Source: Nitrospirota bacterium (GTDB lineage: Bacteria; Nitrospirota; Leptospirillia; Leptospirillales; Leptospirillaceae). Taken from it: a stretch of DNA of 64,000 nt. Location: the NCBI GenBank assembly GCA_021828375.1, contig JAKARS010000004.1, positions 21,920 to 85,919 on the forward strand, given 5' to 3'. Both the position numbers and the translations under genes were made by a program. Positions 22,953 through 25,957 of this stretch are shown one piece after another (the stretch's first letter is position 1; the number at the start of each line of letters is the position of its first letter). The notes under the pieces were generated by a model, which worked only from the letters and a program-made list of their open reading frames with translations, had not been told where the DNA came from and did no database searches.

Positions 22953-23222
22953 ATGGCATTAAGCAAGGAAAAAAAGCAGGAAGTTATCGAATCTTTTAAA
23001 ATTTCTGGCAATGACACCGGATCTGTTGAGGTTCAGGTTGCCATACTGACGGAGCGTATCAACCAGCTGGGAGAGCACTTCAAGAAGTTCCCTAAGGATG
23101 TCCATTCCCGAAGGGGTCTCCTTTTGATGGTGAGCCGCAGGAGACGCCATCTCAAATACCTTCAGTCAAATAACCCGGCCAAGTACCAGGAAATCATCAG
23201 CCGCTTGGGTCTCCGCCGCTAG
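22953..23222 (+). CDS. rpsO: 30S ribosomal protein S15
   Basis: [47 protein letters not shown]. Confidence 0.98.
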
Positions 23223-23388: not shown

Positions 23389-25518
23389 ATGAAGCCAGTT
23401 ACAGTTGAAGTTGCCGTCGGAGGAAAGACGGTCAGGATCGAGACAGGACGTATGGCTCGCCAGGCCGACGGAGCCGCGGTTCTCTGGGTCGAGGGGACAG
23501 TGATTATCGCCACAGCTGTTGCGGCAAAGACCGTCAAGCCGGGAACCGATTTTCTTCCTCTGACAGTGGACTACCAGGAGCGGGCCTATGCCGCGGGAAA
23601 AATCCCGGGAGGATTCTTCAAGAGAGAAGGAAAGCCGTCTGAGCGAGAGATATTGAACAGCCGCCTCGTCGACCGTCCTCTGCGTCCGCTCTTTCCTGAA
23701 GGGTTCTACTACGACACCCAAGTGATCGCCTCCGTGGTCTCCGCAGACCGGAGCGGGGTCACTGATGTGATGGCCGTTGTGGCGGCATCCACTGCGTTGA
23801 CCATTTCCGACATTCCTTTTAATGATCCTCTTGGCGCTGTTCGTGTGGGCTATGTGAATGGCCAGTTTGTGATCAACCCCGACATTGAGGCCCAGGAGCA
23901 ATCCAGCCTCGATCTCGTGGTGGCAGGAACGGCTGATGCCATCATGATGGTGGAAGGCAAGGCGGACGAGGTTTCCGAAGAGCTCTTCCTCGAGGCGATC
24001 CGGACAGCCCACGCTGCCTGCCAGCCGATCATTGCCGCCCAGCGCGAACTTCAGCAGAAAATTGGAAAGGCCAAGCGGGCTCTTCCCAAAGTTCCCGTGC
24101 GTCCCGAGCTCATGGAGAAAATCCGATCAGGGGGGCGTGATGCCCTTTCGGGAATCCTTGTTGTTTCGGACAAGAAGGTTCGGGAGGAGAAAACTGCCGA
24201 GATTCGGAGCTCTCTTGCCAAGGAGCTATTTCCCGAAGGATTTGCCGACCCCATGCAGGAAAAGGAGTTCTCCAACGGATTCCATGAGCTCGAGCGAGAG
24301 CTCCTGCGTGCCATGGTTCTCGATCGCGGGATCCGTGCCGATGGTCGCTCCACGACGGAGATCCGTCCCATCACAATCGAGGTAGGAATCCTTCCCCGAA
24401 CCCATGGATCGGCCCTCTTTACCCGAGGAGAGACCCAGAGCCTTTCCGTGGCGACTCTCGGAACTTCCGATGACGAACAACGGATCGACTCCCTGGAGGG
24501 AGAATCCCACAAGCGGTTCATGCTTCACTATAACTTTCCGGCCTTCTCGGTTGGGGAAGTCAAGCCGATGCGGGGGCCGGGGCGTCGGGAGATTGGCCAT
24601 GGAAATCTTGCAGAGAGAGCCCTCATCCCGGTTCTGCCGTCGAAGGACGACTTTCCCTATTCGATCCGGCTTGTGTCCGACATTCTGGAATCGAATGGTT
24701 CGACCTCCATGGCCACCGTCTGTGGCGGAACTCTGGCCATGATGGATGCCGGCATTCCCATCAAGGCCCCCGTCGCCGGAATCGCCATGGGTCTGATCAA
24801 GGAAGGAGACAGAATCGCAATTCTGTCAGATATTCTGGGGATCGAGGATCATCTTGGTGATATGGATTTCAAGGTGACCGGAACGGATGTCGGTGTCACT
24901 GCGGTTCAGATGGACATCAAGATCAAGGGCATTACCCTTGAGATCATGAAGAAATCTCTCGAACAGGCCCGTGTCGGTCGGATTCACATCATGGGAAAGA
25001 TGAAGGAGGCCTTGCCGTCCGTTCGCTCCCAGATGTCTCCCTATGCGCCTCGCATCATGACCATCCAGATCAAGCAAGACAAAATCAGGGAGGTCATTGG
25101 GCCCGGCGGAAAGATGATTCGCAGTATCACCGAACGGACGGGTGCCAAGATCGAAATCGAGGATTCTGGTGTGATCCATGTGGCCTCCGCCGATGAGGAA
25201 GCCGCAAAGAAGGCCATCGAAATCATTCATCAGATCGTTGCCGAGGCGGAAGTGGGCAAGATCTATCTTGGCAAGGTCAAGACCGTTGCCGAATATGGGG
25301 CTTTTGTGGAAATCATGCCTGGCACCACCGGTCTTTGCCATGTATCCCAACTTGAACCCCGTCGCGTCGAGAAGGTGACCGATGTGGTCAACGAGGGGGA
25401 CGAGATTGTCGTGAAGGTTCTGGAAGTGGACCGTCAGGGAAAAATTCGCCTTTCCCGGAAGGAAGCCATCGCCGAGGAAGGGGAGGGACGCGAAACGCGG
25501 GCCTCTGCCACCCACTAG
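23389..25518 (+). CDS. pnp: Polyribonucleotide nucleotidyltransferase
   Basis: RPLRPLFPEGFYYDTQVIASVVS; KH domain IREVIGPGGKMIRSITERTGAKIEIED; S1 domain. Confidence 0.98.
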   Translation: MKPVTVEVAVGGKTVRIETGRMARQADGAAVLWVEGTVIIATAVAAKTVKPGTDFLPLTVDYQERAYAAGKIPGGFFKREGKPSEREILNSRLVDRPLRPLFPEGFYYDTQVIASVVSADRSGVTDVMAVVAASTALTISDIPFNDPLGAVRVGYVNGQFVINPDIEAQEQSSLDLVVAGTADAIMMVEGKADEVSEELFLEAIRTAHAACQPIIAAQRELQQKIGKAKRALPKVPVRPELMEKIRSGGRDALSGILVVSDKKVREEKTAEIRSSLAKELFPEGFADPMQEKEFSNGFHELERELLRAMVLDRGIRADGRSTTEIRPITIEVGILPRTHGSALFTRGETQSLSVATLGTSDDEQRIDSLEGESHKRFMLHYNFPAFSVGEVKPMRGPGRREIGHGNLAERALIPVLPSKDDFPYSIRLVSDILESNGSTSMATVCGGTLAMMDAGIPIKAPVAGIAMGLIKEGDRIAILSDILGIEDHLGDMDFKVTGTDVGVTAVQMDIKIKGITLEIMKKSLEQARVGRIHIMGKMKEALPSVRSQMSPYAPRIMTIQIKQDKIREVIGPGGKMIRSITERTGAKIEIEDSGVIHVASADEEAAKKAIEIIHQIVAEAEVGKIYLGKVKTVAEYGAFVEIMPGTTGLCHVSQLEPRRVEKVTDVVNEGDEIVVKVLEVDRQGKIRLSRKEAIAEEGEGRETRASATH

Positions 25519-25537: not shown

Positions 25538-25566
25538 TTGTTTTTTTGAATGGGGTTTGCCATAAT
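25538..25566 (+). promoter_or_regulatory. Putative sigma70-type promoter of the micro-gene 25726..25848
   Basis: TTGTTT (25538-25543)-17 nt-CATAAT (25561-25566). Confidence 0.4.
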
Positions 25567-25592
25567 GCTTCCTGTCTTATCAGTCTGGTGAT

Positions 25593-25694
25593 TTGGCAGG
25601 GGATGTGGATCCGCAAGGATCTTTAGCCAAGGCCTGCCCCCCAAAGGGAAAGGGCAGGAGTCATTCGCATTCGTCCCAGATTTTTTCTGGGACG
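25593..25694 (+). promoter_or_regulatory. Structured 5' leader with mutually exclusive helices
   Basis: GGCAGG (25595-25600)/CCTGCC (25633-25638) enclosing GGATCC-GCAA-GGATCT (25607-25622), competing with CCTGCCC (25633-25639)/GGGCAGG (25652-25658); then CGTCCCAGA-ttttt-TCTGGGACG (25672-25694). Confidence 0.5.
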
Positions 25695-25725
25695 GGCGCG
25701 AGACAATCATCGAGGAGGTCTGTCA

Positions 25726-25848
25726 ATGGATGTGAACAAAGGTGCTACAGGGCTTGTGGTCGTGGCCATCATCATGGCGGTTGTCTGGGGCGGACTCTCT
25801 ATGTATGTCGGGGTGAATCCCTTCTTCCTTCCGACCGGAGTTCATTAA
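25726..25848 (+). CDS. 40-aa single-TM micro-protein (possible cytochrome oxidase subunit IIa-like)
   Basis: AGGAGG (25713-25718) 7 nt before ATG; MDVNKGATGLVVVAIIMAVVWGGLSMYVGVNPFFLPTGVH; followed by a strong terminator. Confidence 0.65.
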   Translation: MDVNKGATGLVVVAIIMAVVWGGLSMYVGVNPFFLPTGVH

Positions 25849-25926
25849 TCCCCGAGACGTTTGCTTTGTCTTCCGGAGTTCCCTCCGGATATCTTTTTCG
25901 GCCTTTATTCTTATCTTCCTTTGCAG

Positions 25927-25957
25927 GGTGCCTGCCTTCGGGTGGGCACCTTTTTTT
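25927..25957 (+). terminator. Rho-independent terminator with UUCG tetraloop
   Basis: GGTGCCTGCC-TTCG-GGTGGGCACC (10 bp including two G-U pairs) followed by TTTTTTT. Confidence 0.92.

Follow-up and report, generated by a model that had tools for sequence, protein, structure and literature searches.

A lineage-specific structured leader between pnp and a small membrane-protein gene, with a last hairpin apparently selected for pairing rather than sequence

The window analysed here (the whole 64,000-nt stretch of the Nitrospirota contig JAKARS010000004.1) carries, between pnp and a gene of 40 codons, a leader of about 150 nt that is probably transcribed and in which overlapping complementary segments can form alternative helices. 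This raises the question of whether the leader is a regulatory switch, as a first-pass annotation of the DNA had suggested, or whether its folding has another role or none. The features of the locus are collected in Table 1. The upstream open reading frame (ORF) is named pnp from its own sequence and from the rpsO-pnp order (an rpsO-like ORF lies at 22953-23222), and the C-terminus of pnp is common to the upstream ORF in most relatives. For four genomes of the genus the long-ORF scan chose an out-of-frame ORF; in these, the upstream DNA can be seen to encode the pnp C-terminus or to adjoin it. The related contigs belong to uncultured Nitrospirae bacteria, with two more distant ones labelled Leptospirillum sp., and such Leptospirillum-like organisms presumably have an acidophile lifestyle. 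A literature search found no publication on this pnp/small-gene locus.

Table 1. Features of the pnp/small-gene locus (window positions; decimals are predicted pairing probabilities).
Feature	Coordinates	Strand	Description
pnp (polynucleotide phosphorylase)	23389-25518	+	709-aa ORF, 5' neighbour of the small gene
Predicted promoter	25538-25566	+	-35 TTGTTT (25538-25543), 17-nt spacer, -10 CATAAT (25561-25566)
P0	25571-25600	+	CCTGTC (25571-25576) with GGCAGG (25595-25600), plus ATCA/TGAT
Possible long-range helix	25587-25711	+	GGTGAT (25587-25592) with ATCATC (25706-25711), adjoining the Shine-Dalgarno
P1 (upstream helix of the first-pass annotation)	25595-25638	+	GGCAGG (25595-25600) with CCTGCC (25633-25638)
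P2	25607-25622	+	GGATCC-GCAA-GGATCT hairpin; predicted 0.9-0.99
P3 (downstream helix of the first-pass annotation)	25633-25658	+	CCTGCC (25633-25638) with GGCAGG (25653-25658)
P4	25660-25704	+	GTC/GAC plus 16-nt arms (25665-25680 and 25686-25701); predicted 0.997
Shine-Dalgarno GAGGAGG	25712-25718	+	AGGAGG conserved in 14/14 leaders
Small membrane-protein gene	25726-25848	+	40 codons, same strand as pnp
Terminator-like hairpins, two	25872-25889 and 25925-25952	+	3' of the small gene; pattern scan

The sequence elements on which the idea of a switch was built are all present. GGCAGG (25595-25600), CCTGCC (25633-25638) and GGGCAGG (25652-25658) were found where the annotation had placed them, as were the GNRA-capped hairpin now called P2, the complementarity of TTGGC and GCCAA (25593-25597/25626-25630), and a perfect 9-bp hairpin, CGTCCCAGA/TCTGGGACG (25672-25680/25686-25694). 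The annotation had overlooked the outward extension of this last hairpin, the CCTGTC at 25571-25576 as a further partner for GGCAGG, and the promoter just upstream. Among dinucleotide shuffles of the leader, 2.4% contain a 6-nt stretch that finds an exact partner on each side of it, and so do 84 of 1597 158-nt segments slid along the window; the double complementarity around 25633-25638 is uncommon, not rare. A perfect 9-bp hairpin appears in about 0.5% of shuffles, and the region as a whole folds better than shuffles (z = -3.9). From +1 to the ATG, only the window and its nearest relative show a marked folding excess (z = -3.6 and -2.2), the remaining 12 homologous leaders giving z values from -2.0 to +0.9. 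The strong fold is a property of the window sequence, less so of the nearest relative, and not of the leader family. The view that the leader belongs to no known class was borne out by a cmscan-type check against Rfam 15, which gave no match in the leader: at the gathering threshold only two tRNAs were found in the whole window, and in a permissive search the matches in the leader region with the best E-values fell far below gathering. A possible upstream reading frame within the leader (ATG at 25603, MWIRKDL) was considered and rejected: the nearest relative has an extra base inside the frame, and in the next two the ATG is gone.

The case for transcription of the leader comes from the promoter. 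The block CTTGTTTTTTTGAA...TTTGCCATAATG is conserved in an alignment of the 14 leaders of the genus, its -35 part missing in one, and occurs at a single site in its own genome when up to 3 mismatches are allowed. The predicted promoter scores below the threshold of the sigma-70 scan; its spacing suggests a start near 25574. The annotation had named a start downstream of 25658 as a point against its own reading, and the promoter conserved across the genus places the predicted start upstream of that position. In L023 (G008:C29), the relative with the missing -35 block, pnp and the small gene are about 480 nt apart, and the -10 block and the leader itself are retained.

Our comparison of related genomes shows P4 to be a real RNA structure, fast-evolving yet still paired, in which pairing is selected and the letters are not, and this is the best evidence that the locus offers. 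P4 extends the 9-bp hairpin outward through TCGC/GCGA and GTC/GAC, with arms of 16 nt each in the window and two relatives, and ends 8 nt upstream of the Shine-Dalgarno (SD). Between the window and the nearest relative, 13 of the 32 positions in the arms differ, as against 8 differences over 133 positions elsewhere; each of the two sequences nevertheless keeps 15 of the 16 pairs, three of them changed on both sides (G-C to A-U, U-A to C-G and A-U to G-C). Among the four genomes on which the covariation in clade A rests, 6 of 18 pairs of P4 are changed on both sides and 92.9% of cells are paired. For the four-helix structure 96.8% of cells are paired, against 39-48% when the partners are slid, a control that with four sequences is suggestive and does not give a probability. 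P4 is, in clade A, a stable leader hairpin retained as structure and not as sequence. In L022 and L024 it is weaker and is not the predicted fold.

The last-hairpin slot is also occupied elsewhere in the genus: each of the 14 leaders allows a local hairpin of about -9 to -26 kcal/mol 5' of the SD. Clade-B leaders are not clearly better folded than shuffles, so that hairpins there could be due to chance in GC-rich sequence. One could extend this to the whole leader and regard it as a neutral GC-rich spacer with functionless hairpins. Most clade-B leaders folding no better than shuffles would fit that idea, as would the fact that the leaders of the two clades cannot be recognised as one family. 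We nevertheless consider it highly improbable, given the compensatory changes of P4 in clade A, the strictly conserved blocks described below and a leader length that is maintained at about 120-155 nt.

The account that we favour, with moderate confidence and from comparative sequence evidence, is that of a lineage-specific structured 5' untranslated region whose sequence-indifferent hairpin probably makes the mRNA more stable or insulates the ribosome site. The small gene would have, in this genus, its own promoter and a folded leader of about 150 nt. P4, held paired by selection while its sequence drifts, would have a mechanical role: selection for pairing only fits stabilising or insulating, and it is this that leads us to infer such a role. 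Most likely P4 would shield the mRNA from RNases, and it may also, or instead, keep the GC-rich leader and read-through from pnp from folding onto the ribosome site.

A switch makes different demands on the leader. In this alternative, 25633-25638 is contested by 25595-25600 and 25653-25658; which pairing persists, and hence whether the ribosome site is open, would depend on a ligand, a protein or the speed of transcription. All three segments are retained in four relatives, and folding of the nascent RNA predicts a change from P1 to P3 as transcription passes 25658. P1 is predicted at 0.98 in RNA ending at 25638 and at 0 by 25662, dominating only between 25638 and about 25654 and disappearing once 25658 is transcribed. 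In the complete leader P3 is predicted at 0.97-0.99, while thermodynamic folding of the full-length leader leaves P1 at about 0.01 or less for any assumed start from 25568 to 25575. Many GC-rich leaders would be expected to refold step by step in this way, with no ligand required. In our preferred account, too, P1 would form first during transcription and then yield to P3, with no ligand or sensing implied.

Comparison between relatives gives no support to P1. No compensatory change was found in it in alignments of four and of six relatives, and a 9-nt deletion in two relatives (L042 and L045) removes 4 of the 6 positions of its 5' partner. In P3, five pairs are invariant and one shows a C-G/U-G change among four sequences. 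Neither competing helix (25595/25633 or 25633/25658) has a double change, which with so few sequences is a lack of support and not a disproof. Covarying pairs, to which the annotation had looked for a decision, are absent from the competing helices and present in the last hairpin. P2 is invariant in four relatives, and in an automatic alignment of two further ones a single pair is double-changed and three other pairs are mismatched; P0 is invariant in four sequences and hence gives no evidence of covariation. Both strands of P0 are complete only with a transcription start at 25571 or earlier; the helix is predicted at 0.98 or more with an RNA 5' end at 25568 or 25571 and far lower with one at 25574.

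The 6-nt arrangement of P1 and P3 is missing from most of the other leaders, recurring once among the other eight of the genus, in the most divergent one, where the arrangement may not be homologous. No second copy of the leader, as a repeat or regulon, was found in its own genome, and neither state is coupled to a terminator or predicted to be strongly coupled to the SD. P3 and P4 were also considered as an intrinsic terminator or attenuator and rejected, there being no T-run after either and no terminator inside the leader in the scan. What stands of the original reading is a leader that is structured and probably transcribed, precedes a tiny membrane-protein gene and belongs to no Rfam family; its mutually exclusive helices do not hold up as a switch. 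A genus-specific switch, if real, would add a new lineage-specific regulatory RNA, but the balance of the evidence is against it and we regard it as unlikely.

A further helix may involve the ribosome site itself, and its presence next to the SD counts in favour of a switch. GGTGAT and ATCATC are invariant in 6 of 6 clade-A leaders and show no covariation there, and their pairing is predicted with a probability from 0 to 0.9 depending on the RNA ends. In clade A the blocks GTCTTATCA, GGTGAT and GCGAGACAATCATCGAGGAGG show strict or almost strict conservation, for which a mechanical role alone gives no reason; GGTGAT and GCGAGACAATCATCGAGGAGG can pair through GGTGAT/ATCATC. It is mainly because the conservation of these two blocks lacks an explanation that we keep a small probability for regulation. 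In its specific form, the 5' strand at 25587-25600 would move between self-pairing, 25633-25638 and the SD-adjacent ATCATC and so gate translation of the small protein, a proposal that we hold to be very unlikely. Most predictions do not sequester the SD strongly (mean unpaired probability 0.17-0.83). Its sequestration by CTTCCT (25568-25573) pairing with AGGAGG was rejected, as it presupposes transcription from upstream of the predicted start and has a predicted probability of no more than 0.014.

The leader is restricted to one lineage. Some 190-235 nt separate pnp from the small gene in 14 genomes of one genus (about 480 nt in one of them); in the other four genera of the family the gap is 34-38 nt and the leader is absent. 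The leader is therefore either a gain in this genus or a loss elsewhere, and the locus presents a gene that some genera keep immediately after pnp and that in another is preceded by a promoter of its own and a structured leader. Two covariance models (R1 and R2) gave significant matches at the orthologous locus only: over 21 genomes that of the clade-A leader recovered the six orthologous leaders alone, and that of clade B recovered its own set and one outlying leader of the genus. At significant E-values the clade-A model recovered no clade-B leader, nor the reverse. It thus seems that the leaders of the two main clades are linked by position, promoter, SD and last-hairpin slot, with no common core. 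No aptamer-like core conserved across the leaders of the genus was found. In a metabolite-binding riboswitch the aptamer should be the conserved part, so that this result speaks against one. In clade B, leaders L043, L040, L039, L041, L047, L048 and L046 share an invariant CGCCTTTTT near the 5' end, which in several of them is complementary to AAAAAGG at the SD. A pairing of CCTTTTT with AAAAAGG beside the SD in clade B, complementary by eye, was rejected, since the SD side varies without compensation.

The position behind pnp suggests another alternative, in which the hairpins serve the pnp mRNA as an intercistronic element for processing or 3' protection, either blocking 3'-5' decay after read-through or being cut by RNase III, and the promoter is secondary. 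In the interval from pnp to the small gene the pattern scan listed no terminator-like site, so that read-through from pnp is likely, and the small gene lies directly behind pnp in other genera. However, the leaderless genera have no such element in their 34-38 nt gap, and in the genus itself the promoter is better conserved than the hairpins; this explanation appears improbable to us. Downstream of the small gene, a CCGG-type hairpin followed by a T-rich stretch is retained in most relatives. The sequence TTATTCTTATCTTCCTTTGCAGGG at 25906-25927, 5' of the second terminator, is retained with minor differences in 13 of the 14 genomes in this genus, including clades whose leaders have diverged.

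The gene behind the leader is itself of interest. Its product, MDVNKGATGLVVVAIIMAVVWGGLSMYVGVNPFFLPTGVH, resembles a single-pass membrane protein, and it occurs once per genome, behind pnp, in 21 of the 21 genomes of the order examined: it is an unannotated core gene of the order. In a sample of the phylum outside the order only weak matches inside frames of more than 800 codons were found, which we take as chance. Pfam, NCBIfam and PDB contained no relative of the small protein, and roles as an oxidase subunit or a toxin were accordingly rejected; no known toxin family matched significantly, HokA reaching E = 0.3 in only one of six homologues. This 40-residue protein is perhaps a better lead than the leader itself.

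These properties bear on a last alternative, a ribosome-standby or translation-limiting leader of the tisB kind, in which strong hairpins next to the SD slow translation and the 5' part loads ribosomes. A long structured leader ahead of a tiny membrane protein is what such an arrangement would look like, and P4 ends close to the SD. Type I toxins, on the other hand, are sporadic in distribution, unlike this single-copy core gene of a whole order. Moreover, in most predictions the SD is not strongly sequestered, and no sigma-70-like site, hence no antisense promoter, was found on either strand of the locus at the scan threshold, a threshold that also misses the predicted forward promoter. We rate the standby explanation as doubtful.

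Compared with riboswitches and attenuators, the leader is alike in having overlapping alternative helices that are predicted to succeed one another during transcription; it differs in having no aptamer-like core across the genus, no covariation in P1, no terminator, a single locus and no match in Rfam. With the standby leaders of the tisB type (PMC7708055) it has in common its length and structure and its place ahead of a very small membrane protein, whereas here the gene is a single-copy core gene after pnp and no antisense RNA or SOS link was seen. Stem-loops in 5' untranslated regions can stabilise mRNAs, including vacA under acid stress (PMC7509114). The relatives here are Leptospirillum-like and presumably acidophilic. 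In contrast to the ompA, vacA and recA types, the hairpin selected here lies near the SD and not at the extreme 5' end, and its role is a predicted one. As in those mRNAs (PMC7509114), it is a stable leader hairpin near the ribosome site that is retained as structure and, apparently selected for pairing only, it makes a small, clean case.
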